NCBI RefSeq assembly: GCF_013376475.1
Contig: NZ_CP045508.1
Coordinates: 3,012,001 to 3,076,000 of the forward strand
Origin: Desulfolutivibrio sulfoxidireducens
Lineage (GTDB): Bacteria > Desulfobacterota > Desulfovibrionia > Desulfovibrionales > Desulfovibrionaceae
Reading direction: 5' to 3'
DNA: 64,000 nucleotides
The notes below the pieces were generated by a model that was not told where the DNA came from, did not search any database, and saw only the letters and a list, made by a program, of their open reading frames with translations. This document shows, in pieces, positions 42,855 through 64,000 of the stretch (positions are counted from its first letter, which is position 1; every line of letters starts with the position of its first letter). The translations under genes were made by a program, and so were the position numbers.

Positions 42855-43283
42855 TGGCGTCCTCCGGGGAACTCGTCGCGGGAATCCGGCTTTTCATGCC
42901 CTGACGGCACGGGGCCAGGGCCTCGATCCATATCGTTTTTTATACAAAACAAAGGAAATATGCACAAATATATTTTTTTCCGACGGCTCGCCGAACCACC
43001 TCCCGGTCGGTCCGGGTCGCGGGCCGCCGGCGTTCGCACACAGCCTCCCGGCAGGCGCGTCGTGCGGATAGGGCCGTATCGACCCTGGCGCGCGCGTGAT
43101 CGAGGCCGGGATCCCCGGGACTCGTGATGATGCTCGGGAAAATGGTCTTGAACGTGGAGCGGGCCACAACGGAGATGCGCTCCGGCGCCAAGAAATTGAC
43201 TCCCCCCGGGTCGTCCGCCTTCGCGGCGCACCTCCCTCCAGGCACGCTTGACAGGCCTGGATGGCGAGGGTTTACTGCCGGCA
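42855..43283. other. Spacer between the response regulator and the surface-sugar locus
   Basis: This 429-base divergent spacer holds the promoter of the response regulator (42939-42967) in an AT-rich patch and must also hold the promoter of the sugar locus, which was not located. No gene is supported. Confidence 0.5.
42939..42967 (-). promoter_or_regulatory. Candidate promoter of the response regulator
   Basis: On the minus strand TTGTGC, 17 bases, TATAAA lies in an AT-rich patch about 85 bases before the start codon. The -10 matches five of six consensus bases, the -35 only three. Confidence 0.4.
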
Positions 43284-43952
43284 ATGTCCACAAAAGATCC
43301 CCCGATCCCCGTCATCGTCCTTGGCGGAGGCGGCCACGCCCGTTCGCTTCTCGACGCCATGGCCACCATGCCGGCGGTTTCCGCCGTCGGCATTCTCGAC
43401 CCCGACCCCTCGCTGCACGCGGCATGCGTCCTTGGCGTCCCGGTCCTTGGCGGCGACGAACTGCTTTCGTCCCTGCCGCTACAAGGGATACAGGGCTTCG
43501 CGGTGGGCGTCGGCCAGGTCGACGCGGCCGGGGCGCGCCTGCGCCGCCGGCTCTACGACGCGGCCCGCAAGGCCGGACTGCGTCCCATGACCATCGTCCA
43601 TTCCCGGGCGTGCCTGTCCCGGTTTTGTGAAATCGGGCTCGGCGCGCAGTGCCTGGCCGGCGCGGTGGTCAACGCCGGGGCCGTGGTCGGGGAGAACGTC
43701 ATCGTCAACACGGGCGCGGTCGTCGAGCATGATTGCCTGATCGGCGCGCACGCCCACATCGCCAGCCGGGCCTGTCTGTGCGGCGGGGTCCAGGTCGGTG
43801 AATCGAGCCTGGTGGGGGCCAATGCCGTGGTCCTGCCACACATCCGCATCGGCGCGGGCGCCGTGGTGGGCGCGGGAGCGGTCGTGTGCGCCGACGTGCC
43901 CCGAAACGCCACAGTGGCCGGCAATCCGGCCCGGCCCGTCTCTGGCGCATAA
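43284..43952 (+). CDS. Sugar O-/N-acetyltransferase, NeuD/PglD family
   Basis: This 222-residue protein has a Rossmann-like N-terminal part (IPVIVLGGGGHARSLLDAM) and a left-handed beta-helix of hexapeptide repeats (GAVVNAGAVVGENVIVNTGAVVEHDCLIGAHAHIASRACL) with the catalytic His in VEHDC. NeuD/PglD-type enzymes acetylate amino sugars or sialic-acid-like sugars. The ATG at 43284 is taken; an in-frame TTG at 43248 would add 12 residues. It opens the nonulosonic-acid locus. Confidence 0.85.
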   Translation: MSTKDPPIPVIVLGGGGHARSLLDAMATMPAVSAVGILDPDPSLHAACVLGVPVLGGDELLSSLPLQGIQGFAVGVGQVDAAGARLRRRLYDAARKAGLRPMTIVHSRACLSRFCEIGLGAQCLAGAVVNAGAVVGENVIVNTGAVVEHDCLIGAHAHIASRACLCGGVQVGESSLVGANAVVLPHIRIGAGAVVGAGAVVCADVPRNATVAGNPARPVSGA

Positions 43953-45139: not shown

Positions 45140-46144
45140 ATGGAGTTTACCGGAAAGCGTTGTCTCGTGACCGGGGCCGGCGGATTTATCGGCTCGCACC
45201 TTGTGGAGCGGCTTGTCCGCGCCGGGAATCCGGTCCGGGCCCTGGTGCGCTACTGCTCGAGCGGTTCCATCGGCCTGCTGCGCGACGTGCCCGAAGAGAT
45301 CGCCGCGTCGGTGGAGATCGTTTCCGGCGATGTGCGCGACGCCGCACTCATGGCCGCGACGACCAGGGGTGTGGACGTGGTCTTCCATCTGGCCGCGCTC
45401 ATCGGCATCCCCTATTCCTACGCGGCGGCCGAATCCTATGTGGACACCAACGTCAAGGGCACGCTCAACGTGCTCCAGGCGGCCCTTTGCGCCGGGGCCT
45501 CGGTGGTGCACACCTCCACCAGCGAGGTCTACGGCACGGCGGATTTCGTGCCCATCACCGAGGAGCATCCGCTCAAGGCCCAATCGCCCTATGCCGCGTC
45601 GAAGATCGCGGCGGACCAGCTCGCCTTGTCGTTTCATCATTCCTTCGATCTGCCGGTGACGGTGGTTCGCCCCTTCAACACCTTCGGACCGCGACAGTCG
45701 CCCCGGGCGGTCATTCCGAGCATCATCCTCCAGATGCTCCGGGGAGGGGAAACGCTGCGGCTTGGCGCGCTGCATCCCACCCGGGACTTCTGTTTCGTGG
45801 AGGACACCGTGGCCGGGTTCCTGTCCCTGGCCGCCTCGAAAGAGGCCCTGGGGGAGGTGGTCAACATCGGCACCGGACACGAGTATTCCATCGCCGAGGT
45901 GGCGCGCCTGATTGGACGATGCATGGGCCGGGACGTGGCCTTTGCCCAGGAGGCGCACCGGCTGCGGCCGGAAAAAAGCGAGGTCGAGCGGCTGCTTGCG
46001 GGTGTGGACAAGGCCAGGCGGCTTGCCGGCTGGCAGGCCCGTTACGCCGGTCCGGAAAACTTTCTCCTGGCGCTGCGAAAGACCATCGAATGGTTTTCAC
46101 AGCGCCTGGAACTGCCCATGTACGCCGAGGATTTCCGCCTCTAG
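45140..46144 (+). CDS. legB: NAD-dependent sugar 4,6-dehydratase, LegB-like
   Basis: This 334-residue extended SDR has the NAD motif VTGAGGFIGSHLVERL, the catalytic Thr/Ser-Tyr-Lys set (HTSTSEVYG and SPYAASK) and RPFNTFGPRQSPRAVIPSIILQML, which is typical of LegB, the UDP-GlcNAc/UDP-aminosugar 4,6-dehydratase that starts legionaminic acid synthesis. A 4-keto-6-deoxy sugar is the expected product, to be aminated by a DegT enzyme of this locus. Related UDP-glucose-type dehydratases are the alternative. Confidence 0.83.
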   Translation: MEFTGKRCLVTGAGGFIGSHLVERLVRAGNPVRALVRYCSSGSIGLLRDVPEEIAASVEIVSGDVRDAALMAATTRGVDVVFHLAALIGIPYSYAAAESYVDTNVKGTLNVLQAALCAGASVVHTSTSEVYGTADFVPITEEHPLKAQSPYAASKIAADQLALSFHHSFDLPVTVVRPFNTFGPRQSPRAVIPSIILQMLRGGETLRLGALHPTRDFCFVEDTVAGFLSLAASKEALGEVVNIGTGHEYSIAEVARLIGRCMGRDVAFAQEAHRLRPEKSEVERLLAGVDKARRLAGWQARYAGPENFLLALRKTIEWFSQRLELPMYAEDFRL

Positions 46145-46197: not shown

Positions 46198-48450
46198 ATG
46201 AATACACGTCCCCTACTCGACGCGGTTGACGGCTTGCTCGGCAAGAACCAACTGCGGCAGGCTGAAACGATGCTCAAGGACCTCTTGCGCGTCGACCCGA
46301 AAAACGTCCAGGCCTTGCAACGCCTGGCCGCCGTGGCCAAGGGCAAGGGAGACTACACGGCCGCAAGCGTCATCCTGCGCAGGGCCCAAAAACATGCGGA
46401 TGCCCAGGCGGTCCGGATCGTGCGGTTTTCAAGCTTTCTGGAAAAGGACGATCCGACCGGACCGGCCTTGCGCCAGGGGCTGACGGCCGCCGGATTGCGC
46501 GTGGACGAATCGCCAGAGCCCACGCCCGGGGCCGACGTGTTCTATGCGGCCCTTGGACCGGGGCGAATGGATGCGGCCATGCGCTTTTTGCGGGACGCGC
46601 CAAAAGGCGCGCCCGTGATCCTGGACATGGCCCGGCTGTCGCAAAACCTTGCCCAGGAGGCCAGACGCGGCCTGCACCAGGCCCTGGCCGCGCGCCTGCC
46701 GTGGGTCGTGGCCCGACGCCAAAGCCAACTTTTGGACCACCAGGGAAATCCCTATGCCGGGCCGGCCCTGGTCTGCCCCGACTATCTGTCCTATGGCCCG
46801 CTCAGCCCGGCTGTGCGGGCGGACATCTCCTGGTTCGTGCTTCGCGCCCTGGGCCGCGTGACGTGCGAAAAGCGCCCGACCGAGTACGTGGAGGCGTTGC
46901 TGGAGGCCCCTTTGGGCGACCCGGCGCTGGAAGACGCGGCCCGCCGGCTGCTGGCCCTGGCCCCGGATTTCGCTCCCGCGCTGGCCTACCTGCGCGCCAG
47001 GGACTTATGCCGGGGGGAGGCCATACCCAAAGGGGAGTTCGCCATCTATATGCGCGACAGTCTGGGAGGGCGCTCGCTGCTCTCCCTGGCACGGGGGGAA
47101 ACGGTGCGGCCCCTGGCCGAATACATCGCCACCCTGCGCCGCCACCTTTTTCCCCGAGGGATCCGCGGCGACCGGCGAAAACGCGTCCTTCTGAGCGTGG
47201 GGCGCAAGCAGCGCGACCTGTTCATCACCCTTTTCATCCGCTACTGGCTGGAGAAGATGGGCTACGAGGTCTTCGTGCGCCCCTCCCAGAACGCCTTCAG
47301 GGCGGGCATCGTGGAACTGCTGCCCGACGCGGTGGTCTGGGGCGAACGGACCACGCCCAGCAAGATGTCCCTGGGGCGCTTCGCCCGCGAACGCGGGCTC
47401 GTCTCCATCGTGCGCCGCGAGGAGGCCGGGCACACCTATTCGAGTTGGCAAAGCGCCGATCCCAAGCGGCGAAGCTGGTCCATCGGCCAGGCCGACTATT
47501 CCGACATCGTGGACGCCGAGATCTTTTCCGGACCCGAGGCGGCTGATCTGACGGCCACCCACGGGCACATGCCGCGCCAGGCCGTGCATGACGTCGGGGC
47601 CATGCTCTTCGACATCTACCTAAACGGCGCCCTCGCCCCGCATCTGCCGCCCCGGGAGGACTTCCGCGCCAGGCACGGCCTGGACCCGGGCAAAAAAAAC
47701 ATGGTTTTCTGCGCCCGCTGGGCCCATGCCGACCGCGACCCCAAAAACGCCATCCCGGAGTCGACGTTTCAGACCAAGGGCCAGGCCGTGGATGAGCGGG
47801 TCGTCGCATACATCGCGATGTGCCAAAAAGGGCGGCGGGTTTGGCTCGAGGCCCTGGACAGGCTGTATCGGGAGCGCGGGGATCGCTGGAATTTCATCTT
47901 CCGCCCCCACCCGGGCGAACTCATGGAGCCCTATGTCACCCATTTCCAGGCCAAGGGCATGCATGTCCCGGTCATCCTCGACGACTTCATGCCGATCATG
48001 CTCAACCACATGGACCTGGTGATCCATGCGGCGTCCACCACAGCTTTGGAAGCCCATTTCCTGGGCATTCCGGCCATCAACTTCGCCGATCCCGAGCCCG
48101 CGTATCTTCCCGTTTCCCGGCTTTCCCCGCGCTGCGACGACTACGAGTCCCTTGTGCAATGCATCGACAGCGTCGAACCGGGGCGCTCCAACGCGGACAC
48201 AACCGTCCTGGCCGAGATCCAAAGGAGCCACTACGGCCTCATGGACGGCCAGGCCTGCCGCCGGGCCGCGGAGGTGATCCACGGGGTGATCGAAAAAAGC
48301 GGGACGTCCCCCTGCCGCCTGCCCAAGGACACGGTGCGGCCCTATACCGAGGAGCGCGGACGCGACGCCATCAAGGGGGACGTCACCATCGAGGAAGTGG
48401 AGCGCTACTACGCCCTGGTCAAAAGGCTGCTCGACAGCGGCGCCGCGTAA
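46198..48450 (+). CDS. TPR-containing glycosyltransferase-like protein (surface polysaccharide)
   Basis: This 750-residue protein opens with TPR-like helices (LLGKNQLRQAETMLKDLLRVDPKNVQALQRLAAVAKGKGDY) and continues into a large domain that ends with a GT-B-like fold: WNFIFRPHPGELMEPYV, then DLVIHAASTTALEAHFLGIPAINF. The latter resembles CDP-glycerol glycerophosphotransferase/capsule-type transferases and lipid-sugar transferases. ATG 46198 follows AGGA at some distance; 46168 is an alternative start. It probably attaches or polymerises sugar on a protein or envelope carrier. The acceptor is unknown. Confidence 0.6.
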   Translation: MNTRPLLDAVDGLLGKNQLRQAETMLKDLLRVDPKNVQALQRLAAVAKGKGDYTAASVILRRAQKHADAQAVRIVRFSSFLEKDDPTGPALRQGLTAAGLRVDESPEPTPGADVFYAALGPGRMDAAMRFLRDAPKGAPVILDMARLSQNLAQEARRGLHQALAARLPWVVARRQSQLLDHQGNPYAGPALVCPDYLSYGPLSPAVRADISWFVLRALGRVTCEKRPTEYVEALLEAPLGDPALEDAARRLLALAPDFAPALAYLRARDLCRGEAIPKGEFAIYMRDSLGGRSLLSLARGETVRPLAEYIATLRRHLFPRGIRGDRRKRVLLSVGRKQRDLFITLFIRYWLEKMGYEVFVRPSQNAFRAGIVELLPDAVVWGERTTPSKMSLGRFARERGLVSIVRREEAGHTYSSWQSADPKRRSWSIGQADYSDIVDAEIFSGPEAADLTATHGHMPRQAVHDVGAMLFDIYLNGALAPHLPPREDFRARHGLDPGKKNMVFCARWAHADRDPKNAIPESTFQTKGQAVDERVVAYIAMCQKGRRVWLEALDRLYRERGDRWNFIFRPHPGELMEPYVTHFQAKGMHVPVILDDFMPIMLNHMDLVIHAASTTALEAHFLGIPAINFADPEPAYLPVSRLSPRCDDYESLVQCIDSVEPGRSNADTTVLAEIQRSHYGLMDGQACRRAAEVIHGVIEKSGTSPCRLPKDTVRPYTEERGRDAIKGDVTIEEVERYYALVKRLLDSGAA

Positions 48451-48523: not shown

Positions 48524-49753
48524 TTGAAAAATACCTGGCGTTTCGACGAAAAAGAGTTGGAGTACATCCAGGAAGTGCTGCAATCCGACTTCATGTCGTC
48601 CACCGTGGGCAACATGAACCAGCGATTCGAGAAGGCCTACGCCGCCAAATGCGGGGCGCGCTACGCCGTATCCATGAACTCGGGCACCTCCACCATGCAC
48701 GCCTGCCTGGCGGCGGTCGGCGTCGGCCCAGGCGACGAGGTCATCGTGCCCGCGCTGACCGTGATCAGCACCGCCTCCGTGGTCCTGCACCAAAACGCCG
48801 TCCCGGTCTTCGCGGATATCGACCCCGAGACCTTCACCATCGACCCGGACGACGTGCGCAAAAAAATCACCCCCCGCACCAGGGCGATCATCCCGGTCTC
48901 CCTCTACGGGCTGTGCTGCGACTTCGACCCCATCCTGGAACTCGCGGCCGAGCACGGGCTCACGGTCATCGAGGACGCGGCCCAGGCCCACATGGCGGGC
49001 TACAAGGGACGCACCTCCGGGGCCATCTGCCACATGACCAGCGTCAGCTTCGAGAACTCCAAGCACATCACCACCGGCGACGGCGGCATGGTCACCACGG
49101 ACGACGAACGCCTGGCCGTGGCCGTGCGCAAGTTCGCGACCCTGGGCTATGCCGGCCTGCGCGCGGACGACGGCCGGGTGCGCAAGATTCTCAAGGACGA
49201 GCTGCAATCCCCGGGCTACGAGCGCCATGACGGCTTCGGCTGGAACTACAGGATGCCCGAGGTGGCCGCCGCCGTGGGCCTGGCCCAGGTGGAGAAGATG
49301 GATCGCTTCGTGGCCATGCGCCAGAAGATCGCGGCCATGTACGCCGCGGTCATTCGGGAGGAAGGCTGCGGATTCCTGATCCCCCAGAAAAATCCCGAGG
49401 GCCATGAGAACACCTATTTCACCTTCGCGGCGCGTTTTGACGCGGCCAAGGCCGGCAGGTCCTGGCGGGATTTCCGCGATCTCTACAAGCGCCACGGCGG
49501 CGACGGCATCTACGCCGCCTGGTTGCCGGTCTACCTGGAACCGGTCATGCGCGAGTACCGTTTCTACGGCAAGGGCTGTCCGGTGCGCTGCCCCCTGTAC
49601 GCGGGGCATGTGGAGTACACCCGGGGACTGTGCCCGGTCACGGAAGAGGTGCAGCCCACGCTGATGCAATTCGTGAACAACTACCGCGACGAACAGGAGG
49701 CCGCGCCCAAGGTGGAAGCCTTGCGCCAGGCCATTCGCGAATGTGGGAAATAG
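48524..49753 (+). CDS. PLP-dependent sugar aminotransferase, DegT/DnrJ/EryC1 family (first copy)
   Basis: This 409-residue enzyme starts at TTG 48524 with GAGGTG 5 bases ahead. Family features: NSGTSTMHACLAAVGVGPGDEVIVPALTVI near residue 50, VIEDAAQAHMAGYKG with the Asp that touches PLP, and the Schiff-base Lys in SFENSKHITTGDGG near 185, then NYRMPEVAAAVGLAQ. Such enzymes aminate keto-sugars. It belongs to the first module of the locus with the divergent NeuB and the SpsF-like protein. Confidence 0.9.
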   Translation: MKNTWRFDEKELEYIQEVLQSDFMSSTVGNMNQRFEKAYAAKCGARYAVSMNSGTSTMHACLAAVGVGPGDEVIVPALTVISTASVVLHQNAVPVFADIDPETFTIDPDDVRKKITPRTRAIIPVSLYGLCCDFDPILELAAEHGLTVIEDAAQAHMAGYKGRTSGAICHMTSVSFENSKHITTGDGGMVTTDDERLAVAVRKFATLGYAGLRADDGRVRKILKDELQSPGYERHDGFGWNYRMPEVAAAVGLAQVEKMDRFVAMRQKIAAMYAAVIREEGCGFLIPQKNPEGHENTYFTFAARFDAAKAGRSWRDFRDLYKRHGGDGIYAAWLPVYLEPVMREYRFYGKGCPVRCPLYAGHVEYTRGLCPVTEEVQPTLMQFVNNYRDEQEAAPKVEALRQAIRECGK

Positions 49754-49757
49754 CGGC

Positions 49758-50807
49758 ATGGAAAAAACGGTTTCGTTCGCGGGACACCGGATAGGCGACG
49801 GCCATCCCGTGTTCCTGGTCGCCGAGCTTGGCGTCACCCACGAGCAGAACGTGGAACTGGCCCGGTCCTTTACCCGCGCCGCCGCCTCGGCCGGATTCGA
49901 CAGCGTGAAGGTCGAGTCCTTCCAGGCCGACGACCTGGTGGTGGACAAGACCATGGTCCACACCTACGGCACGGCCGACGGCGTGGTCCGCGAGAACTAC
50001 TACGACCTGCTCAAACGCCTCGAACTGTCCTATGCGGATTTCGCGGCCATCAAGCGCGAGGCAGACGCGGCGGGCACCCTGTTCTTTCCCACGGTGGCCA
50101 CGGCGTCCAGCGTGGATTTCTTCGAGTCCATCGGGGTCGCGGGCTACAAGCTGGCCTCGCCGGATCTTGTCAACTTCCCCTTGCAGAAGCTGGTGGCCGC
50201 CACGGGCAAGGTCCTGTTCATGGACACCGGCGGGGGTTTTTTGCACGAGATCGAGAAGGCGGTCCTGCATCTGGAGGCCCGCGGCGCCAGCCAGGTGGTG
50301 CTGATGCACAACCCCTCGGGCTATCCCGCCCCCCCCGAGAAGACCGATCTGCGCATGATCCGCACCCTCAAGGACGTCTTCGACATCCCTGTGGGGCTTT
50401 CCTGCCACACCCCGGGCACGGACTGCGTCATGGCCGCCGTGGCCCTGGGCGCGAACGTCATCGAGAAGCCCGTCACCAGGGACACGACCATCGCCGGTCC
50501 GGAGCACGTGTTTTCCCTGCCCATCGGGGAGGGCGCGGACTTCGTGGCCCGCATCCGCAGGCTGGAGACCTCCCTTGGCGGGCGGCGACGGCTGTCCGTG
50601 GACGAGAACAGCCTGCCCCGCAGGATCGGCCGGCGCGGCGTGTATGCGGCGCGCGACCTCAAGGCCGGGCACGTCCTCGAATTCGCGGACATCCTTCTGG
50701 CGAAACCGCAACAGGGCGTGCCGGTGGAGCTTCTGGATCAGGTGTTGGGACGCGCCTTGGGCCGGGATCTGGCCCGGCATACGCCCGTGACCTGGGAGGT
50801 CTTCTGA
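49758..50807 (+). CDS. Divergent NeuB-family sugar acid synthase with SAF domain
   Basis: This 349-residue protein has the NeuB barrel (residues 1-265) and C-terminal SAF domain (about 285-349). Comparison with the second NeuB of this window shows the same spacing but altered signature residues: HEQN for HNG at 28-31, VES for FQ at 52-54, SCHTPG with H217 kept, and EKPVTRD where P238 replaces the metal-ligand His of EKHFTLD. It should still condense a sugar with phosphoenolpyruvate-like substrate or have changed function. ATG 49758 is chosen; GTG 49743 is alternative. It is five bases behind the aminotransferase and two bases before the nucleotidyltransferase. Confidence 0.75.
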   Translation: MEKTVSFAGHRIGDGHPVFLVAELGVTHEQNVELARSFTRAAASAGFDSVKVESFQADDLVVDKTMVHTYGTADGVVRENYYDLLKRLELSYADFAAIKREADAAGTLFFPTVATASSVDFFESIGVAGYKLASPDLVNFPLQKLVAATGKVLFMDTGGGFLHEIEKAVLHLEARGASQVVLMHNPSGYPAPPEKTDLRMIRTLKDVFDIPVGLSCHTPGTDCVMAAVALGANVIEKPVTRDTTIAGPEHVFSLPIGEGADFVARIRRLETSLGGRRRLSVDENSLPRRIGRRGVYAARDLKAGHVLEFADILLAKPQQGVPVELLDQVLGRALGRDLARHTPVTWEVF

Positions 50808-50808
50808 G

Positions 50809-51612
50809 GTGCCCGCGCCCCATGAGCCCACGGCCGCGGCCAGCCTCCCCGCGCCTTACGACACGGGCATGCTCGTCCAGGTCAGGCTTGGCTCCACGCG
50901 TCTGCCGGGCAAGGCCCTGCTCGAGGCCGGGGGGGTCCCCCTGCTGGGCCATCTCATCCGGCGGGCGCGCTGCCTGGCCGAGCTTGGCCGCTATCCCCTG
51001 ATCGTCGCCACGACCGCCAGGGACGCGGAGATCGCGGACTTTTGCGCCAGGCTGGGCATCGACTGCCTCATGGGCGAGGAAGAGGACGTGACCCTGCGAC
51101 TGCTCGATGCCGCCCACAAATACGGCCTGGCGCGTTTCGTCCGGCTCCAGGGCGACGATCCCCTGGTGTGCCCGTACGGCATCCTGGCCGCGCTTGCGGC
51201 CCATGACCCGGCATCGGCCGACGTCACCACCACGGCGCACCTTTCCGGCTGGCCCGTGGGCACGGCCTCCATGGTCATGGAGACACAGGCCCTGGCCGCC
51301 GCCTACGAGGACCTGGCCGCCCGGGACCCGGAACGCCTGCGGCGGGCGTTTCTGCCCCTTGACCAGGGGCGGCTGCGCATCCGCCCGGTACACCGCGTCC
51401 GGCCGTGGGACGTGACCGGGGCGTTTTTCACCATCGACCATCCCGAGGACTTCGCCCTGTTCCGGGACATCGTGGACCACCTGCGGCCCATGGAACGCGG
51501 CTACGACTTTCCCTTGGACGATGTCTACGCGGCCATGGCCGCGGGCGCGGTCAGGCCGGGCAACCGGCATCGGCACGAGCCCTTCCCGGCCATGACGGAG
51601 CGCGGGTCATGA
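50809..51612 (+). CDS. Cytidylyltransferase-like protein (SpsF/COG1861 type)
   Basis: This 267-residue protein has the nucleotidyltransferase N-terminus VQVRLGSTRLPGKALLEAGGVPLLGHLIRRA, then FVRLQGDDPLVCPYGI (catalytic DxD-like Asp) and late GYDFPLDDVYAAM. It probably activates the product of the preceding NeuB-family enzyme as a CMP sugar. GTG start at 50809 with GGGAGG 9 bases upstream. Stop overlaps the next gene (ATGA). Confidence 0.75.
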   Translation: MPAPHEPTAAASLPAPYDTGMLVQVRLGSTRLPGKALLEAGGVPLLGHLIRRARCLAELGRYPLIVATTARDAEIADFCARLGIDCLMGEEEDVTLRLLDAAHKYGLARFVRLQGDDPLVCPYGILAALAAHDPASADVTTTAHLSGWPVGTASMVMETQALAAAYEDLAARDPERLRRAFLPLDQGRLRIRPVHRVRPWDVTGAFFTIDHPEDFALFRDIVDHLRPMERGYDFPLDDVYAAMAAGAVRPGNRHRHEPFPAMTERGS

Positions 51613-52817
51613 AGACGCTCTTCGTCACCGGCATGTTCCGCTCGGGAACCACGCTGATGAGCCGGATGCTCCACGCCCACCCCGACATCGGCCTGGCCTC
51701 CGACGGGCTGTTTCCCTTTTTCAAGCACCTGCGGTCCGCCGTGGCCAGGCGGGCCGGCGTGGCGTCCGACTCCCCTTTCCACGCCCCCCTGGCCGATTAT
51801 TATTTCGGGGAGCAAAAAGAGGTCCTGGACGCGATCCTGGCGGCCGACCTGGATCCGCCCCTGGCTCCGGAGGAAAGACGGCTATTGCTAGATCGCGTCG
51901 CTACCTGGTGCACCGGGCATCCGCAATACGCCCCCCTGCTCGAACCCCATGTGCGGGACTGCCCGGGGGAGAGCTTCGCGGTCCTGCTGCAAGGGCTTCT
52001 GGAGGTCGTCCACGCGGTCTACGGCCGGGGAACCGCCACGATCACGGCCTTCAAGGAGGTCTGGACCACGGAATTCATCTGGGCCCTGGCGCGAAGCTTT
52101 CCCGAGATGCGGTTTCTGTGCGTGGTCCGCGACCCGCGCTCGGTCTTTGCCTCCAAAATGCATCGCCAGGCCCTGTACCCGCCCCTGTTTCTGGCCCGGC
52201 AGTGGCGCAAGCTGGCGGCCCTGTCACTTCTGGCGGCCCGGGATCCGGCCCTTGGCCCCCGCGTTTGCGTGGTGCGCTTCGAGGACCTCGTCTTGAGCCC
52301 GCGGGACACGACCAGACAGGTGTGCCGGTTTCTCGACATTGCCTGGAATGCGTCTATGATACGTCCCGAGTCCTTTGTGGACGGATACGGCGATCCCTGG
52401 CGGCAGAACACGGCCTACGGCGCGGGCGGGACCGGCTTCGATCCGGGGGCGGCCACGAGTTGGGAACAGGCCCTGACCGGGCGGGAGACGGCCTTCGTCG
52501 AAGGCCTTTGCTGGCCCGAGGCCGGGCTTTTCGGGTATGAGGCGCGGCACGCCCCGGACCTGGCGCGCCTGGCGGACATGACCGTCACCCCCTGCCTCGT
52601 TGAGGAGCACCGGTTGGCGCGGTGGATCAAGCCCTTCGTGACCGTCTCTCCCACGGCCACGGCCTTGGAGATGGGCAGGGAATTCGTGAGGGCGGCCATG
52701 TTGCGGCAACGGCCGTCCATGGACCAGGAGCACGGCCGGGACCTGGCCGCATGCTGTTTTCTGGCCGGCGACATCTACGAGGCGTGCGCGCGGTTTGTCG
52801 CGCGGGGTGAGGGATGA
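51609..52817 (+). CDS. Sulfotransferase family protein
   Basis: This 402-residue protein starts MKTLFVTGMFRSGTTLMSRML; FRSGTTL is the 5'-phosphosulfate-binding loop of PAPS-dependent sulfotransferases, and FLCVVRDPRSVFASKM is the 3'-phosphate loop. A long C-terminal half is of unknown fold. Within a sugar locus it would transfer sulfate to a glycan hydroxyl or a carrier; a sulfate reducer has abundant adenylyl sulfate. The ATG overlaps the previous stop. Confidence 0.8.
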   Translation: MKTLFVTGMFRSGTTLMSRMLHAHPDIGLASDGLFPFFKHLRSAVARRAGVASDSPFHAPLADYYFGEQKEVLDAILAADLDPPLAPEERRLLLDRVATWCTGHPQYAPLLEPHVRDCPGESFAVLLQGLLEVVHAVYGRGTATITAFKEVWTTEFIWALARSFPEMRFLCVVRDPRSVFASKMHRQALYPPLFLARQWRKLAALSLLAARDPALGPRVCVVRFEDLVLSPRDTTRQVCRFLDIAWNASMIRPESFVDGYGDPWRQNTAYGAGGTGFDPGAATSWEQALTGRETAFVEGLCWPEAGLFGYEARHAPDLARLADMTVTPCLVEEHRLARWIKPFVTVSPTATALEMGREFVRAAMLRQRPSMDQEHGRDLAACCFLAGDIYEACARFVARGEG

Positions 52818-54199: not shown

Positions 54200-54817
54200 A
54201 TGCGCATCGGACTCATCGACTACGCGGCCGGCAACCTCAGGTCCGTGTCCAACGCCTTCAAGGCCCTGGGCGCGCGGGACCTGACCCTGGTCTCCACCCC
54301 CGGGGAACTCGCCGCCTGCGACAAGATCGTGCTGCCCGGGGTCGGGGCCTTCCCAAAGGCCATGCGGCACCTGCGCGAAAGCGGCCTGGCCGAGGCCCTG
54401 GACCGCGAGGTGCGCCGGGGCAAGCTCTTTTTGGGCATCTGCCTGGGGATGCAACTGGCCATGGATTTCAGCCTGGAACTCGGCAGGACCGAGGGCTTCG
54501 GCTGGGTCCGGGGGGGGGTTACCCCCTTTCCCCGGGACATGGGGCTGAGCGTTCCCCACGTGGGCTGGAACGACGTCCGGCGGGCCCGGACCTCGGCCTT
54601 GCTCGCGGACCTGCCCGAGTCCACGGATTTTTATTTCGTGCACGGCTTTTACGTGTCCTGCGACGACCCTGGCGACGTGCTCCTTTGGTGCAATTACGGC
54701 ATGGATTTTGCTGCGGCCATCCAGAAGGACAACGTGATGGGAACCCAGTTCCACCCGGAAAAAAGCCAGACCCACGGCCTGAAGCTTCTTGAGAACTTCA
54801 TGAACATGCCATGCTGA
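54200..54817 (+). CDS. hisH: HisH-type glutamine amidotransferase subunit (sugar modification)
   Basis: This 205-residue protein is a class I glutaminase with the nucleophile Cys in LGICLGMQLAMDFS and His/Glu in GTQFHPEKSQTHG. It releases ammonia for its partner HisF. An AGGAG site lies 6 bases before the ATG. The absence of other his genes and the presence of the amidotransferase behind it show that it is a paralogue for sugar amidation, not histidine synthesis. Confidence 0.88.
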   Translation: MRIGLIDYAAGNLRSVSNAFKALGARDLTLVSTPGELAACDKIVLPGVGAFPKAMRHLRESGLAEALDREVRRGKLFLGICLGMQLAMDFSLELGRTEGFGWVRGGVTPFPRDMGLSVPHVGWNDVRRARTSALLADLPESTDFYFVHGFYVSCDDPGDVLLWCNYGMDFAAAIQKDNVMGTQFHPEKSQTHGLKLLENFMNMPC

Positions 54818-55575
54818 AACGACGCCTCATCGCGGTGCTCGTCGTCAGGGACGGCAGGATCGTCCAGAGCGAGCGCTTCCGCCATCCGCACCTGATCCAT
54901 GACGACCCCGTGTTCGCCATGGACTGCTTCAACAAGTGGGCCGTGGACGAGATCGTCACCTTAAACGTCAGCCGTTCGCCGGAAAGCCGGGCGGGATTTC
55001 TCGATGTCGTCGGCCGGCTCTCGGACAAATGCTTCGTGCCCCACAGCGTGGGCGGCTGGATCGAGCACGAGTCCCAGGCCCGGGACCTGCTCAACGTGGG
55101 GGCGGACAAGATCATCGTCAACACCGCCGCCTATCGCGACCCACGCCTCGTCCCGGGCCTGGCCGACGCGTTCGGCAGCCAGTGCGTGGTGGTCTCCATC
55201 GACGCAAAACGCGACGAGGGGGGCCGGGAGCTGGTGTGCATCGACCGGGGGCGCGAGCTCACGCCGACCCCGGTGATCGAGTGGGCGAGGACCGTGGAGG
55301 GGCGCGGGGCCGGGGAGCTGTTCGTCAACTCCATCGACCACGACGGGATGCGCCGGGGCTACGACCTGGACCTGATGCGCCGGGTCAAGCGGGCGGTCAC
55401 CATCCCGGTCATCGGCTTCGGCGGCGTCTTTGAATGGGACGACCTGGCGGCCGGCGTCGAGATCGCCGACCTTGACGCCGTGGCCGTGGCCAACAAGCTG
55501 CATTACATCGAAAACAGCGGCAAGCACGCCAAGCGCCACCTCATCGGCAAGGGCTTGCCGTTTCGGGCCGTCTGA
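54811..55575 (+). CDS. hisF: HisF-like protein lacking catalytic Asp11 (sugar amidation)
   Basis: This 254-residue barrel overlaps hisH by 7 bases. Its start MLKRRLIAVLVVRDGRIV aligns without gaps to HisF, but residue 11 is Val instead of the Asp needed for cyclase chemistry; D131 (SIDAKRDEG) is kept. The phosphate loops remain (NTAAYRDP, IGFGGVFEW). It most likely only channels ammonia from HisH to the amidotransferase encoded next, as the HisF2/HisH2 pairs in Pseudomonas O-antigen loci do. Confidence 0.85.
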   Translation: MLKRRLIAVLVVRDGRIVQSERFRHPHLIHDDPVFAMDCFNKWAVDEIVTLNVSRSPESRAGFLDVVGRLSDKCFVPHSVGGWIEHESQARDLLNVGADKIIVNTAAYRDPRLVPGLADAFGSQCVVVSIDAKRDEGGRELVCIDRGRELTPTPVIEWARTVEGRGAGELFVNSIDHDGMRRGYDLDLMRRVKRAVTIPVIGFGGVFEWDDLAAGVEIADLDAVAVANKLHYIENSGKHAKRHLIGKGLPFRAV

Positions 55576-55686
55576 GCGGGGCCGGTTCCAGGCCTTTCCG
55601 GCAAAGGCCTGTGCGTCGCGCGGGCAGTCCCTTTCGATTCGACCCGCCCCAAGGGGTCCGCAAACAGTCCATCCGGGATGGAGACC

Positions 55687-56988
55687 ATGAGATACTGCAA
55701 ACGATGCTGCTACCCTGAAAATGCCAAGCCCACCATCATCTTCGACGAGGATGGCGTGTGCAGCGGATGCCGCTACCATGAGAGCCGTTCCGACGCGGAC
55801 ATCGATTGGGACCAGCGGGAGGCGATGCTCGCCCGCCTCATGGAGCAGACCCGCGCGGAGGCCAAAAAACGCGGCGCCCCCTACGATTGCATCATCCCCG
55901 TGAGCGGCGGCAAGGACAGCCATTTCCAGACCTGGCTTTTGACCACCCGCTACGGCATGAACCCCCTGCTGGTGGCCTTCAACCACACGTTCAACACCCC
56001 TTCCGGGCAACGCAACCTGGAAAACCTGGTGACCCGCTCGGGCTGCGACCTTTTGCGCATCACCCCAAGCCCATGCTCGGTGCGCAAGGTCTCGCGCTTC
56101 ATGCTCAAGCGCGTGGGCGATCTGACCTGGCACTACCACGCCGGCATCTATACCGTGCCCTTTCAGGTCTCGGCGCGGATGAACATCCCGCTGATCGTCT
56201 GGGGGGAACACGGCTACGCCGAACTGACCGGCATGTTCTCCATCAAGGATTTCGTGGAGTTCACCCGCTGGACCCGCAAGCAATACGACATGCGCGGCCT
56301 GGACGTCTTCGACGTGGTCAACGACGCCGGCAACGACATCGAACTCAAGGACATGGCGTCCTACATTTTCCCGTCCTCCGAGGATGTGGAGCGCGTGAAC
56401 ATGCGCGGCATCTATCTGAGCAACTTCATCAACTGGGAGGCCAAGCGCCAGACCGAACTGATGATAAAGGAATGGGGGTTCGCCCCTGTGACCTACAGGC
56501 GGGAGCGCACCTTCAACCTGTATTCCCACATCGAGGACCACGCCAACGAGGTGCACGACTATATGAAGTTCCTCAAGTTCGGGTACGGCCGGGCCACGGA
56601 CGCGGCCAGCCGCGAGATCCGCCTGGGCCGGCTGACCCGGGAAGAGGGGATTTCGCTGGTGCGCGAGTACGACCACGTGGAGCCTTCGACCCTCTCCACC
56701 TATCTCGATCTCTACGAGATGGACAAAAAGGAGTTCTACGCCCTCTTCGACGCGAAACGCGACCCCGCGATCTGGACACGCGACGCAAGCGGGGACTGGG
56801 CGCTTCGGGACGCCTGCCACCGGCAGGACATGGACCAGGGGCACGAGGCCTTCAGGCCGGCCATGGATGCGGGCGACCACATCTTCGCCCCCCATAACCG
56901 GCACCTCTACTACAACCCCGCGTTGCCCCCCGAGCCGTCCGGCGATCCCCGATTGGACGAACCGGCCATGAAATTCAAGGTGTTATAG
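55687..56988 (+). CDS. N-acetyl sugar amidotransferase (PseA/WbpG family)
   Basis: This 433-residue protein has N-terminal zinc cysteines (YCKRCCYP and CSGCRYH), then the PP-loop IIPVSGGKDSHFQTWLLTTRYG that activates the carbonyl with ATP, and late HIEDHANEVHDYMKFLKFGYG. It belongs to the TIGR03573 family, which converts an N-acetyl group into acetamidino using ammonia from HisH/HisF. The start at 55687 gives MRYCKRC and GGAG just before it; 55678 is an alternative. It gives the best clue to a rare group on the sugar. Confidence 0.85.
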   Translation: MRYCKRCCYPENAKPTIIFDEDGVCSGCRYHESRSDADIDWDQREAMLARLMEQTRAEAKKRGAPYDCIIPVSGGKDSHFQTWLLTTRYGMNPLLVAFNHTFNTPSGQRNLENLVTRSGCDLLRITPSPCSVRKVSRFMLKRVGDLTWHYHAGIYTVPFQVSARMNIPLIVWGEHGYAELTGMFSIKDFVEFTRWTRKQYDMRGLDVFDVVNDAGNDIELKDMASYIFPSSEDVERVNMRGIYLSNFINWEAKRQTELMIKEWGFAPVTYRRERTFNLYSHIEDHANEVHDYMKFLKFGYGRATDAASREIRLGRLTREEGISLVREYDHVEPSTLSTYLDLYEMDKKEFYALFDAKRDPAIWTRDASGDWALRDACHRQDMDQGHEAFRPAMDAGDHIFAPHNRHLYYNPALPPEPSGDPRLDEPAMKFKVL

Positions 56989-59986: not shown

Positions 59987-61207
59987 ATGTCCTTTTTCCC
60001 GCACGGGTTTGCCGAGGCCTTCCTGTCGCGCGTCGCGTCCGTGGTCGGCGGGGGGGAAGGCGTGGTGCCCCTGCACGAGCCCGACCTGGGCGAGGCGGAA
60101 CGGCGCAGCGTCCTTGCCTGCCTCGAGTCGACCTTCGTCTCCACCGTCGGCGAGCACACCCCGCGCTTCGAACGGCTCCTGGCCGACTACGTGGGCTGCC
60201 GCGAGGCCGTGGGCATGGTCAACGGCACGGCCGCCCTGCACATGTGCCTTCTGGGCGCGGGGGTACGGCCCGGCGACGAGGTCGTGCTGCCCTCGCTCAG
60301 CTTCGTGGCCACGGCCAACGCCGTGGGCTATTGCGGCGCCGTGCCCCATTTCGCCGACGTGGAACCCCAGACCCTCTGCCTGTGCCCGGACAGGCTGCGG
60401 GACCATCTGCGCCGCCACGTGGACAGGCGCCCGGACGGGGCCTTCAACAAGGAGACCTCGCGCCGCGTCGCCGCGCTCGTGCCCATGCACGCCTTCGGCC
60501 ATCCCGCAAAACTCGACGACCTGCGCGCCCTGTGCGTCGAATACGGCCTGGCCCTGGTGGAGGACGCGGCCCAGGCCCTGGGCACACGCCTCGACGGACG
60601 CGGCGTCGGGGCCTTTGGTCTGTGCGGGGCCCTCAGCTTCAACGGCAACAAGATCATCACCACCGGGGGGGGCGGCGCGGTATTGACCGACGACCCGGAA
60701 CTGGCGGCGTGGATCCGCCACACCGCCGCCACGGCCAAGAAACCGCACCCCTGGAAGTTCAGCCACGACCAGCCCGGCTTCAACTATCGCCTGCCCAACC
60801 TCAACGCGTCCCTGGGCATCCCGCAATTGCGGCGCATCGAGGAGCTGGTGGCGGCGAAAAGACGGCTGGCCGCGGCCTACGCCGCCGCGTTCGCCGACAT
60901 CGCGCAATGCCGCTTCGTCGCGGAGCGTCCCGAGGCGCGCAGCAACTACTGGCTGTGCACCGTGGTGCTCGACCCTCGGGGGGAACTCGGCGACAGGGCC
61001 GAAGAGCTCCGCGCCGAGGTGCTCGCCGCCGCGCACGGACGCGGCCTTCTGCTGCGCCCGGTCTGGGAGCCCCTGCACACCCTGCCCATGTATCGCCGCT
61101 GCCCGAAGGGCGATCTGGGCGTCACCGAGTTTCTGGCCCCGCGCATCGTCAACCTCCCCAGCAGTTCCCATCTGGGTCGGGCCCTGCCCGGGGACGGGAC
61201 CGCATGA
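59987..61207 (+). CDS. legC: Sugar aminotransferase, LegC-like (DegT family, second copy)
   Basis: This 406-residue PLP enzyme has VVPLHEPDLGEAERRSVLAC and FVSTVGEHTPRFER at the N-terminus, the signature of LegC, then NGTAALHMCLLGAGVRPGDEVVLPSLSF, LVEDAAQALGTRLDG and the PLP Lys in SFNGNKIITTGGGG. LegC aminates the 4-keto sugar made by LegB. The stop overlaps the next gene. It opens the second sugar module (LegC, transferase, NeuB, PtmE). Confidence 0.83.
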   Translation: MSFFPHGFAEAFLSRVASVVGGGEGVVPLHEPDLGEAERRSVLACLESTFVSTVGEHTPRFERLLADYVGCREAVGMVNGTAALHMCLLGAGVRPGDEVVLPSLSFVATANAVGYCGAVPHFADVEPQTLCLCPDRLRDHLRRHVDRRPDGAFNKETSRRVAALVPMHAFGHPAKLDDLRALCVEYGLALVEDAAQALGTRLDGRGVGAFGLCGALSFNGNKIITTGGGGAVLTDDPELAAWIRHTAATAKKPHPWKFSHDQPGFNYRLPNLNASLGIPQLRRIEELVAAKRRLAAAYAAAFADIAQCRFVAERPEARSNYWLCTVVLDPRGELGDRAEELRAEVLAAAHGRGLLLRPVWEPLHTLPMYRRCPKGDLGVTEFLAPRIVNLPSSSHLGRALPGDGTA

Positions 61208-62088
61208 GCGGGCTGTCCCTGGCGGTCTATTCCACCATCCATCCCGGGGTCCTGCCCTATCTGAAAGACTGGTCCGCCTCGCTTGCGGCCCAGCACGACC
61301 GGGACTTCGCACTGATCCTCGGCCTGGACATGGTCGACGAGGCGGACCTCGCCCGGGCCCGCGGGGGCGGGCCGGACGCGGTCGTGGTCAAGGCCCCGCC
61401 GGGCGCCTCTCCGGCCCGGGTCCGGACCCTGGCCCTCACGCGGGCCGTATCCGAATACGACGGCATCCTGTTCCTGGACGCCGACGACGTCATGTTGCCC
61501 CACCGGGTGGCCGAGACCAAAAAGCGCCTGCGGGAGCTGGACTGTTGCGGCTTCGGCCTGCGGCTCATCGACGGCGCGGGAGGCGATCTCGGCCTGACGA
61601 TGGGGATGCGCGAGGACTTTTCCCTGGTTCGCGGCAACCTCTACGGCATGTCCAACACGGCCTACAGGACGCGTTTCGTCCGGCGCGCCCTGCCGTTTCC
61701 CGAAGGCTGCCTGTGCCTGGACTGGTACCTCGCGGCCCTGGCCGAGGCCGAGGGGGCGGGCCTGGGATTCGAGAACGAACCGGCCGGGCTGTATCGGCAG
61801 CATCCGGACAACTGCGCGTCGCTGCTCCCCCCGTTCACCCGCCAGGGGGTCCGGGCCGCGACCCGGGTGGTGCGCGACTTTCTGGCGCGCCTGATCCCGG
61901 CCCTGCCCGCGCGGCGTCGGGAACTCTACCGGGAACGGGCCGCCGAGGTGGCGCTTTTCACCCGGGCCATGGAAACGGATGACGACGCCGCCACGGGCTA
62001 TCTGCGGGCCCTGGCCGAAAAGCCCCTGCTCGAACACTGGTGGGCGCAGGTGGCCAACAAGAAATTGGAGCACCTATGGAAACGCTGA
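61204..62088 (+). CDS. Glycosyltransferase family 2-like protein
   Basis: This 294-residue protein has a GT-A-like start (LSLAVYSTIHPGVLPYLKDWSASLAAQ), the metal motif in GILFLDADDVMLPHRV and LCLDWYLAALAEAEG near the acceptor site. It is shorter than standard GT2 enzymes at the front but follows the family pattern. It overlaps both neighbours (ATGA with legC, 13 bases with neuB), so it is tightly co-translated and probably transfers the sugar made by this module. Confidence 0.7.
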   Translation: MSGLSLAVYSTIHPGVLPYLKDWSASLAAQHDRDFALILGLDMVDEADLARARGGGPDAVVVKAPPGASPARVRTLALTRAVSEYDGILFLDADDVMLPHRVAETKKRLRELDCCGFGLRLIDGAGGDLGLTMGMREDFSLVRGNLYGMSNTAYRTRFVRRALPFPEGCLCLDWYLAALAEAEGAGLGFENEPAGLYRQHPDNCASLLPPFTRQGVRAATRVVRDFLARLIPALPARRRELYRERAAEVALFTRAMETDDDAATGYLRALAEKPLLEHWWAQVANKKLEHLWKR

Positions 62089-63128
62089 TCACGCCGTCGC
62101 GCACAATCGGCCCCGGGGAGGAACCCTATATCATCGCCGAGATCGGGGCCAACCACAACGGGGACATGGCGCTGTGCCGGGACCTGGTGGACGCGGCGGC
62201 CGGGGCCGGGGCCCATGCCGTCAAATTCCAGTCCTGGACGGCGACCTCGCTGATTTCCGAGGCCGAATACGCGCGCAACACCCGGTATTCGGACCCGCAC
62301 CGCCATTTCGGCTCGCTACGGGAGATGGTCGAGAAATATCAGCTTTCCCCCGCCGACCATGCGATGATAGCCGACCATTGCCGCGCCAGGGGCATCGACT
62401 TCTGCTCCTCGGCCTTCTCCCCGCGCGAGGTCGATCTGCTGCTTTCACTCCGGGCGCCTTTCGTCAAGATCGCGTCCATGGACGTGAACAACCGGCCCTT
62501 GCTGGAATATGTGGGCGCCACGGGGTGCCAGGTGATCCTTTCCACGGGCATGGCCGACATGGCCGAGATCGCCCGGGCCGTCACCTGGCTGCGGGAGGCG
62601 GGAGGCGGCCCGATCTGCCTGCTGCACTGCGTGTCCATCTATCCGCCCCGTCCCGAGACCATCAACCTGCGCAACATCCAGACCCTTGCCCAGGCCTTTG
62701 ACGTGCCCGTGGGCTTGAGCGACCACACCCTGGGCACAGCCGTGCCGCTGGCGGCGGTGGCCCTGGGGGCGTGCGTGGTGGAGAAGCATTTCACCCTGGA
62801 CACCTCGCTTCCGGGCTGGGACCATGCCATATCCGCGACCCCTGGCGAACTGGCCGCGCTTGCGCGCGAATGCCGGGTGGTGTTCCAGGCCCTGGGCGTG
62901 GCCCGGCGCGTGGTCAGCGGGGAGGAACTGGCCAAGAGGCGGGCCTTTCGCCGGCGCATCGTCCTGCGCGCGGCCAAGGGCAAAGGGGAGGCGATCGCCT
63001 TAGAGGACCTGGATTTCAAGCGTCCCGGCACCGGCATCGCCCCGGACGAATATCCCTATGTGGTCGGGCGGTTGGCCGCCAGGGACCTTGAAGCGGGGGC
63101 CGAACTCGAATGGAGCGACCTGGTCTGA
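62076..63128 (+). CDS. neuB: N-acetylneuraminate/legionaminate synthase (NeuB/LegI family)
   Basis: This 350-residue enzyme condenses an N-acetylated hexosamine with phosphoenolpyruvate to a nine-carbon sugar acid. Family residues are all present: IIAEIGANHNGDM, VKFQSW, LSTGMADMAEI, SDHTLG with H217, EKHFTLD with H238 (both metal ligands) and PGWDHAISATPGEL; a C-terminal SAF domain follows from about residue 290. The ATG has GGAG 6 bases upstream and overlaps the glycosyltransferase gene. Legionaminic rather than sialic acid is inferred from legB, legC and ptmE-like neighbours. Confidence 0.92.
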   Translation: METLITPSRTIGPGEEPYIIAEIGANHNGDMALCRDLVDAAAGAGAHAVKFQSWTATSLISEAEYARNTRYSDPHRHFGSLREMVEKYQLSPADHAMIADHCRARGIDFCSSAFSPREVDLLLSLRAPFVKIASMDVNNRPLLEYVGATGCQVILSTGMADMAEIARAVTWLREAGGGPICLLHCVSIYPPRPETINLRNIQTLAQAFDVPVGLSDHTLGTAVPLAAVALGACVVEKHFTLDTSLPGWDHAISATPGELAALARECRVVFQALGVARRVVSGEELAKRRAFRRRIVLRAAKGKGEAIALEDLDFKRPGTGIAPDEYPYVVGRLAARDLEAGAELEWSDLV

Positions 63129-63138
63129 GCGCAAGGCG

Positions 63139-64000
63139 TTACAGAAAGACGCCGAGGTGCTGCAAGAGCTTGCGGTATTCCTTGAACTGTCCCATGTCCA
63201 GCCATTCGTCCGAGGTGACGTGGCAGTGGACTTTTTTTCCCTTCTCCAAAAGCGCGGCGATGAGCTTGTCCATGCCGAAGTCCTGGTTGGCGGGGATGTG
63301 CTCCAGGATGCTGCCGCTTAACATGTAGACGCCGCTTATGACCACATAGCTGTAGGTCGGTTTTTCCTCCACGCTGATCACGTTGGATTCGGCGTCGAGC
63401 CCGATGACCCCGTAGGGAATGTCCATGACCCGATTGATGCCCAGGATGGTCAGTTCGGCGTCCTCGGCGGCATGGGCCTGTATCAGCTTGTTCATGTCCG
63501 TCTTGACGAGCACGTCGCAGTTCGTCAGCAGGAACCGCTCGCCCACGGATTCCGGCAACAGGCGCAGTCCCCCGGCCGTGCCCATGAATTCGTCCTCGTC
63601 CACGAAACTGATGCCGTCCATGAGGCTGTTCTCGTAGAAGTAGGACTTGATCAGTTCCTTCATGTAGTTGACGATGATGTAGAAATCCTTGAAGCCCTGG
63701 CTGCGGAAGTAGGTGATGATCAGTTCGATCATGGTGCTTTCGCCGACCGGGACCAGGGGCTTGGGAATGACGCTGGTCAAGGGCGTCAGCCGGGAGCCCT
63801 TGCCGCCGGCCATGATCACCACGGGCAGCGCCTTGGCATGCTTGGCCTCCCGGTGCAGCGAGGCCAGGGTGACCAGGTCCAGGACCACGCCGGCGTCGTC
63901 CAGGATGGGCACCTCCTGGAACTTGCCCTTCATGATGATTTCCTCGGCCCTGTGCCGCTGCGAAACATGCAGCGCGGTGAACCGGGTGTTCATGAATTCG
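63139..64000 (-). CDS. CBS-domain sugar-1-phosphate nucleotidyltransferase, PtmE-like (N-terminus off window)
   Basis: This gene is read on the minus strand and runs off the right edge. Visible residues comprise the end of a CBS domain (AEEIIMKGKFQEVPILDDAGVVLDLVTLASL) and a full nucleotidyltransferase (VVIMAGGKGSRLTPLTSVIPKPLVPVGE, LLTNCDVLVKTDM, EEKPTYSYVVISGVY). PtmE with N-terminal CBS domains makes the GDP-glucosamine precursor for legionaminic acid in Campylobacter. The in-frame ATG at 63993 falls inside the CBS pair, so the true start lies beyond the window. It is convergent with neuB. Confidence 0.85.
   Translation of the reverse strand, partial: EFMNTRFTALHVSQRHRAEEIIMKGKFQEVPILDDAGVVLDLVTLASLHREAKHAKALPVVIMAGGKGSRLTPLTSVIPKPLVPVGESTMIELIITYFRSQGFKDFYIIVNYMKELIKSYFYENSLMDGISFVDEDEFMGTAGGLRLLPESVGERFLLTNCDVLVKTDMNKLIQAHAAEDAELTILGINRVMDIPYGVIGLDAESNVISVEEKPTYSYVVISGVYMLSGSILEHIPANQDFGMDKLIAALLEKGKKVHCHVTSDEWLDMGQFKEYRKLLQHLGVFL

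Follow-up and report, generated by a model that had tools for sequence, protein, structure and literature searches.

One protein of Desulfolutivibrio sulfoxidireducens led to the identification of a NeuB-family branch in which the active-site changes are coupled and whose members accompany canonical NeuB genes. This protein, named NeuBP for its Pro-type active site, is encoded at positions 49758–50807 of a 64,000-nucleotide stretch of the genome (contig NZ_CP045508.1, positions 3012001–3076000), referred to here as the window. The source genome is 4.16 Mb long and contains four NeuB-family genes according to a genome search. A preliminary description of the window had reported a NeuB that lost a metal-binding histidine, and the present finding is wider than that. 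It is based on direct results for the fold, the coupled changes, the clades, the residue conservation, and the company of a canonical NeuB and a cytidylyltransferase. Judged from its sequence, NeuBP is predicted to be a functional NeuB-fold protein and no relic, and to represent a changed branch, not just one lost residue. The explanation tentatively preferred is that NeuBP actively makes an ulosonic acid, using a metal site that has been rebuilt and an acceptor other than that of canonical NeuB. In broader terms, it probably forms another sugar acid, or uses another metal or no metal at all.

Coupled active-site changes and clades

In characterised NeuB, both histidines of the metal site bind Mn. 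In pairwise alignment, residues 212–250 of NeuBP and of the canonical NeuB of the window aligned without gaps, with P238 opposite His238 and H217 kept, as had been described. The changed HNG and FQ motifs were also confirmed, ANHNG being VTHEQ and VKFQ being VKVE in NeuBP. In the alignment with Neisseria meningitidis NeuB, His215 corresponded to the kept H217 and His236 to P238; the two-histidine site of Mn-dependent NeuB was therefore absent from NeuBP. The other unchanged residues were Glu25 (E23 in NeuBP), Lys53 (K51), Thr110 (T112), Lys129 (K131), Ser132 (S134), Tyr186 (Y189), Ser213 (S215), and Glu234 (E236). The other changed residues were Gln55 (E53), Phe112 (A114), Ser154 (D156), Cys182 (N185), Asp247 (E249), and Arg314 (K316). 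In the available part of PMC7371886, positions 110, 129, 131, 132, 182, and 184 of N. meningitidis NeuB surround phosphoenolpyruvate (PEP). The ligand-near residues in the part of PMC6795526 at hand include Glu25, Thr110, Lys129, Ser213, His215, and Glu234, and also Gln55, Phe112, and Arg314.

The distribution of these changes was investigated in 149 genomes of the family, 395 of the phylum, 348 of the order, and 242 of another order, with a further 395 genomes of the phylum to which the genome of locus L034 belongs and a genome contig collection that gave one locus. From 202 fetched sources (loci or the window), 210 distinct NeuB rows were obtained, a subset of all search matches; a row was distinct if it differed over residues 81–200 of the matched piece. 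The second histidine was present in 192 rows and replaced in 18. At sites 156/238/249, the residues were Ser/His/Asp in 190 rows, Asp/Pro/Glu in 8, Asp/Thr/Glu in 7, and Asp/Arg/His in 3. The remaining two rows, Ser/His/Glu and Ala/His/Asp, both keep His238. In each of these His-type rows, L213 and L242 (2223–3233), a single one of the three sites departs from the pattern (Ala156; Glu249), which shows that one change can arise without the others.

Site 156 was Asp in 18/18 non-His rows and Ser in 191/192 His rows, and site 249 was Glu or His in 18/18 and Asp in 191/192, respectively. Site 27 was Asn in 187 of the 192 His rows (Ala in 3, gap in 2). The Pro rows had Cys27 in 6/8 and Thr27 in 2/8, the latter being the window protein and that of genome G004; Thr27 was found in all seven Thr rows and all three Arg rows. 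Glu53 occurred in 8/8 Pro rows and in none of the remaining 202 (one gap). Position 185, equal to 182 of N. meningitidis NeuB, was Asn or Gln in 8/8 Pro rows and Cys in 69/69 His rows. His217 was kept in every row except the three Arg rows (Glu, Glu, and Arg), in which both metal histidines are gone, 238 being Arg. Glu23, Lys51, Thr112, Lys131, Ser215, and Glu236 were unchanged in all 18 non-His rows. The Arg-type NeuBs lie at L237 4531–5565, L238 5410–6444, and L240 4872–5906, with Lys51, Lys131, and Glu236 kept. The lost metal histidine of the preliminary description was thus borne out as a replacement of His238 and not as a lone loss, the replacement being coupled with sites 27, 156, and 249 and marking a clade. 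Since the loss belongs to a coupled change at 27, 156, 238, and 249, the "lost ligand" may be a case of swapped ligands.

The Pro group contained two kinds: the window, G004, and L034 with Cys216, and G044, G289, G1094, G1096, and G1101 with Asp216 and Cys27. L034 has Cys at both 27 and 216. Its contig is titled as a Flavobacteriaceae metagenome-assembled genome and may be misbinned; the locus begins beside the end of a glucose-6-phosphate-isomerase-like gene. No other Pro-type copy was found in the 395 genomes of its phylum at E ≤ 1e-75. Within the order, a Pro-type copy was present in 6 of 348 genomes at a threshold of 1e-88, at which weaker relatives may be missed. The tblastn search of phage records gave 2 matches, both below 30% identity, and that of plasmid records gave 95 matches, all below 60%, of which the three examined (L087, L088, and L089) were all His-type. 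Among 64 pattern matches in viral contigs, no relative of NeuBP was found.

The main tree was built from 83 of 85 rows, leaving out the duplicate L001 and one row shorter than 280 residues. With all columns, support was 99/96 for the Pro group, 100/97 for the Thr group, and 100/98 for Pro and Thr on one side, with a bootstrap that had not settled. A quick tree without the motif columns gave 70, 98, and 63, respectively. Another quick tree included the Arg group, with 18 non-His and 67 His rows, some of the latter from the same loci and the rest random. The Pro, Thr, and Arg groups were each single (95–100). With all columns, the 18 non-His rows formed one side of a branch with a Shimodaira–Hasegawa-like approximate likelihood ratio test value of 91; without the motif columns they need two changes, and the trees thus stop short of a single origin for all three groups. 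The Pro, Thr, and Arg groups are three clades, and Pro and Thr probably form one clade.

The ratio of nonsynonymous to synonymous substitution (dN/dS) between NeuBP and its G004 counterpart was about 0.19 (0.247/1.296). It was 0.40 (0.525/1.302) between the canonical NeuBs of the two clusters concerned, a pair that may not be orthologous; dS is high in both comparisons. A decayed gene was ruled out for NeuBP by the open frame, this low ratio to G004, and the strict residue conservation. P238 is neither chance nor decay, as eight distinct rows share it together with the companion changes and dN/dS is low.

Fold and metal site

NeuBP passed the Pfam gathering scores of PF03102 NeuB (192.7 bits; cut-off 22.1) and PF08666 SAF (34.1; 21). 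Its NCBIfam scores were under the cut-offs of NeuB_NnaB TIGR03569 (238 bits; 399.65) and PseI TIGR03586 (201 bits; 340.25). These scores carry little weight, because the canonical NeuB of the window was also under both (339.8 and 270.3). An AlphaFold (AF2) model from a 20-row alignment had a mean predicted local distance difference test score of 93.0, with a weak stretch at 276–282. VIA-align matched the model to 6ncs (Z 37.2 over 278), 2wqp (37.2 over 341), 1xuu (36.8), PseI 8h2c (34.5), SpsE 1vli (33.1), and 3g8r (30.0), followed by 3-deoxy-D-arabino-heptulosonate 7-phosphate (DAHP) and 3-deoxy-D-manno-octulosonate 8-phosphate (KDO8P) synthases (25–29). Foldseek ranked PseI first and NeuB second. 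Identity was 23–27% to solved NeuB and PseI and 12–22% to KDO8P/DAHP synthases. No solved structure without the second histidine was found among the best 4–5 matches of the window protein, L034, L237, and L010, with 3g8r outside those compared.

NeuBP is thus like the nonulosonic-acid synthases NeuB, LegI, and PseI (PF03102 plus SAF) in fold, domain order, several PEP-side residues, and a nonulosonic-acid-type cluster setting, and differs from them in the replaced second histidine, Ser154, Asp247, and Asn of the NHNG motif. With KDO8P/DAHP synthases it shares the barrel, and the Cys and Asp metal ligands of those enzymes fall at NeuBP columns 27 and 249; unlike them, it has a SAF domain and Thr27.

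A NeuB set was profile-aligned with KDO8P synthases from related genomes (18 candidates), at a probability of 95.9. In 12 runs, covering the Pro, Thr, and His sets at four settings each, the probability was 66–96. Position 27 fell on the KDO8P-synthase metal Cys in 6/6 runs that aligned it, and position 249 fell on the Asp of CDGP in 9/9. According to the available text of PMC3052366, the metal ligands of metallo-KDO8P synthase are Cys, His, Glu, and Asp; the non-metallo form has Asn in place of Cys, and the loop that carries the metal Asp plays a part too. KDO8P synthase mutants with N23C and D247E are named in the titles of 3fyo and 3fyp. In six of the eight Pro rows, the aligned columns show matching kinds of change, with Cys replacing Asn and Glu replacing Asp. 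This parallel is the main ground for reading the metal site as rebuilt rather than abolished. NeuBP itself lacks the metal Cys at the residue-27 column; it has only the Asp to Glu change, with Cys216 next to His217 instead of Cys27.

Alternatively, the branch may have given up the metal like the non-metallo KDO8P synthases, with side chains positioning the substrates. KDO8P synthase is known in metal and non-metal forms and lost the metal with few changes, some in the metal-Asp loop, in what could be seen of PMC3052366, which offers a precedent. The three Arg rows without either histidine point the same way, as does Thr27, which takes the place of Cys in every Thr and Arg row as well as in G004 and the window protein. 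A metal-independent synthase is nevertheless unlikely, since His217 and Glu249 are kept in 15/15 Pro and Thr rows and Cys27 in six Pro rows resembles a gained ligand.

Genomic company and neighbouring genes

In the family sample, the 150 NeuB rows among the matches listed were all classified by sequence as 3 Pro, 4 Thr, and 143 His. Among these listed matches, another NeuB lay within 15 kb of 7/7 non-His copies and, when only His neighbours count, of 4/143 His copies (Fisher p about 1e-9, kinship ignored). The Arg rows came from nine phylum-sample stretches picked for two NeuB matches on one contig 3–20 kb apart, and finding them near a canonical NeuB therefore carries no evidential weight. 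A canonical NeuB was present in the fetched stretch of 8/8 Pro, 5/7 Thr, and 3/3 Arg loci; of the two Thr loci without one, the first was 4 kb from a contig end and the second on a 17 kb contig. All 18 non-His loci had a cytidylyltransferase-like gene in the same stretch (by Pfam in 5 and by BLAST in the rest), usually as the adjacent gene and never more than a few genes away.

NeuB is a domain-swapped dimer, and the changed copy might be a non-catalytic partner that associates with the cluster's canonical NeuB and steers or regulates its activity. The closeness of non-His copies to another NeuB would fit, as would the single cytidylyltransferase per two NeuBs in the window and in the three Arg stretches, which are only 7–10 kb long. 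Closeness alone does not mean partnership, because pairs of two His-type NeuBs within 10 kb occur as well, among the same nine stretches of the phylum sample (G478, G486, and G523). The window NeuBP lies 11 kb from its canonical NeuB, and at least two cytidylyltransferase-like genes accompany the two NeuBs in G289, G044, G1094, G1096, and G1101. Lys51, Lys131, Thr112, Ser215, and Glu236 are kept and Asp156 is new in 18/18 rows, which also argues against a partner; such a role has a small chance of being correct.

Gene contexts were named by BLAST to the window proteins and to proteins of loci labelled in this analysis, and the labels PseB, PseC, PseG, PIG-L, and radical SAM are our assumption from sequence appearance. 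All seven Thr loci had genes like PseB and PseC of L038. The three Arg loci shared the order PseC-like, Arg-type NeuB, cytidylyltransferase, PseG-like, canonical NeuB, and HisH, with a PseB-like gene within the stretch in one. Five Pro-type loci (L036, L071, L090, L091, and L092) formed a second kind of locus, with radical-SAM-like genes in 5/5, a PIG-L-like gene in 4/5, and an APH-kinase-like gene in 4/5 (these Pfam-tested only in L036), and with a canonical NeuB and two or more cytidylyltransferase-like genes in 5/5.

The features of the window are listed in Table 1. The 43–64 kb part is a surface-sugar cluster of LegB-like dehydratase, LegC, NeuD, HisH/HisF/WbuX, and canonical NeuB genes together with the DegT–NeuBP–SpsF trio.

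Table 1. Genes of the window cluster and active-site codons of NeuBP
Feature	Position	Strand	Details
NeuD family acetyltransferase	43248..43952	+	TIGR03570 210 bits, cut-off 161
LegB-like NAD-dependent 4,6-dehydratase	45140..46144	+	TIGR04180 445 bits, below cut-off 475
DegT/DnrJ/EryC1/StrS aminotransferase	48524..49753	+	409 aa, TTG start; PF01041 304 bits
NeuBP, Pro-type NeuB-family protein	49758..50807	+	349 aa, ATG 49758; barrel and SAF
Codon Thr27 of NeuBP	49836..49838	+	Column on KDO8P-synthase metal Cys in profile alignments
Codon Glu53 of NeuBP	49914..49916	+	Gln55 of N. meningitidis NeuB
Codon Asp156 of NeuBP	50223..50225	+	Ser154 of N. meningitidis NeuB
Codon His217 of NeuBP	50406..50408	+	His215 of N. 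meningitidis NeuB, kept
Codon Pro238 of NeuBP	50469..50471	+	Second histidine His236 in canonical NeuB
Codon Glu249 of NeuBP	50502..50504	+	Asp247 of N. meningitidis NeuB; KDO8P-synthase CDGP Asp column
SpsF-like cytidylyltransferase	50809..51612	+	267 aa; PF02348 CTP_transf_3 69.5 bits, cut-off 22.6
HisH-like, HisF-like, and WbuX N-acetyl sugar amidotransferase (3 genes)	54200..56988	+	PF00117, PF00977; TIGR03573 340 bits, cut-off 203
LegC family aminotransferase	59987..61207	+	TIGR04181 459 bits, cut-off 420
Canonical NeuB	62076..63128	+	His217 and His238 kept; PF03102 283 bits
Sugar-1-phosphate nucleotidyltransferase	63139..63993	-	Best match TIGR03992 116 bits, below cut-off 292

The gaps in the trio are 4 bases (DegT–NeuBP) and 1 base (NeuBP–SpsF). 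Pfam agreed with the preliminary description that DegT and SpsF-like genes are the neighbours, the SpsF gene lying just outside the interval it had covered. Of the seven CTP_transf_3 matches in the genome, only this gene falls in the window. The DegT–NeuB–SpsF order was found in 2/8 Pro-type loci, the window and G004 (DegT 77%, NeuBP 68%, and SpsF 52% identical). The trio had been called a self-contained three-gene module; as it recurs in one of seven other Pro-type loci, it is no fixed module. The PADLOC defence search of the trio gave no match.

The window DegT protein has the conserved Lys column, in SFENSKHITTG, which we take to be the pyridoxal phosphate lysine. It was below the NCBIfam equivalog cut-offs of PseC (221.8 vs 423.5) and LegC (219.5 vs 420), and its best solved match was perosamine synthetase 3bn1. 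Its G004 homologue has an in-frame MKNTWRFG at the same start point, and the longest open reading frame there begins further up. Strong DegT relatives occurred in 3/199 genomes of the class, the own genome included. In G121 (L249 9034–10218), a 41% relative is flanked by SpsF-like genes and by WbuX/HisH/HisF-like genes. A NeuB-like gene close by is 37% identical to the canonical window NeuB vs 29% to NeuBP. The nucleotidyltransferase at the window end is presumably PtmE-like. Three window proteins had no Pfam match (46300–48450, 52814–54175, and 61204–62088), and they were 52%, 64%, and 28% identical to their G004 counterparts, respectively.

Proposed function and significance

For NeuBP, the metal ligands, the use of PEP, the acceptor, the product, and the role of the DegT protein are what we infer from these results. 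In the branch, the two-histidine metal site of NeuB would have been rebuilt, with His238 gone, Asp156 and Glu249 in, and Cys27 in most Pro-type proteins. The new Cys27 and Glu249 would stand at the columns where KDO8P synthase binds metal with Cys and Asp. Most likely, NeuBP would condense PEP with a sugar aldehyde that differs from the one used by the cluster's canonical NeuB, the SpsF-like enzyme encoded by the following gene would then activate the ulosonic acid with cytidine triphosphate, and the window DegT aminotransferase may place an amino group on the precursor. The DegT protein, together with the WbuX system, hints at an amino sugar in this pathway. An active synthase is favoured because several PEP-side residues and SAF are kept, a cytidylyltransferase adjoins, and the gene is under purifying selection. 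Another acceptor is favoured because Gln55, Phe112, and Arg314, ligand-near in the accessible part of PMC6795526, are changed. The earlier suggestion of a different sugar acid is plausible, given a distinct NeuB-like enzyme and adjoining cytidylyltransferase beside a complete NeuB.

Several points weigh against an active synthase whose metal site was rebuilt. The profiles align only loosely: H217 matched the DATHS His in no set but the Thr set, being placed on Cys234 with the Pro set and on Ala221 with the His set, and position 238 matched the Glu of MEVH when the Pro or Thr set was used and the MEVH His when the His set was used. Asp156 fell on a KDO8P-synthase Lys in 12/12 runs, and this Lys presumably acts at PEP. 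The new Asp156 and the altered position 185 are both near PEP, and the Arg rows lack His217 too. The likeness to KDO8P synthase is weaker for NeuBP itself because the window and G004 have Thr27. One cytidylyltransferase in the window serves two NeuBs. His236 is absent from the contact list in the portion of PMC6795526 available.

The same fold might instead serve another chemistry, with a three-carbon donor other than PEP or with cleavage instead of synthesis. Ser154 to Asp in 18/18 non-His rows, and Gln55 to Glu and position 185 Cys to Asn/Gln in 8/8 Pro rows each, would suit such a change. Lys51, Lys131, and Thr112 are kept, the latter two at PEP positions in the parts of PMC7371886 and PMC6795526 at hand, which makes it quite improbable. 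The preliminary description had likewise raised a substrate other than PEP, a question on which the retained PEP-side residues and the changes at 156 and 185 point in opposite directions. It is very hard to see NeuBP as an ordinary NeuB, LegI, or PseI with a dispensable second histidine, although NeuB and PseI are its closest solved structures, as all non-His rows lie in separate clades with three more changed sites and a canonical copy is also present.

The legionaminic acid pathway of the Bacillus subtilis sps genes (SpsC, D, G, E, and F) has a NeuB-family SpsE and a putative cytidylyltransferase SpsF, as in the trio, in the available part of PMC7439481. In contrast to NeuBP, the second histidine is still present in SpsE (alignment to 1vli), and no SpsD- or SpsG-like gene was recognised beside the window trio. 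SpsC is presumably a DegT protein. No description of a NeuB without the second histidine was found in the open-licence literature, subscription journals being mostly outside the scope; a characterised subfamily natively lacking it, which would have spoken against the preliminary description, was likewise not found there.

A broader interpretation is rather doubtful: a NeuB branch would have left the two-histidine Mn site, with a KDO8P-synthase-like Cys/His/Glu site in most Pro proteins and metal loss in Arg proteins, and legionaminic- and pseudaminic-type clusters would make an undescribed second ulosonic acid. The branch is recognisable in any genome and directly testable, because four columns mark it. 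The NeuB sequence alone can assign the pathway of a nonulosonic-acid cluster, as stated in the accessible text of PMC7371886. The recurrence of a second NeuB whose active site has changed in a coupled way would imply that the acids made by such clusters outnumber those predicted, and it would supply a natural counterpart, within NeuB, of the metal/non-metal split of KDO8P synthase.

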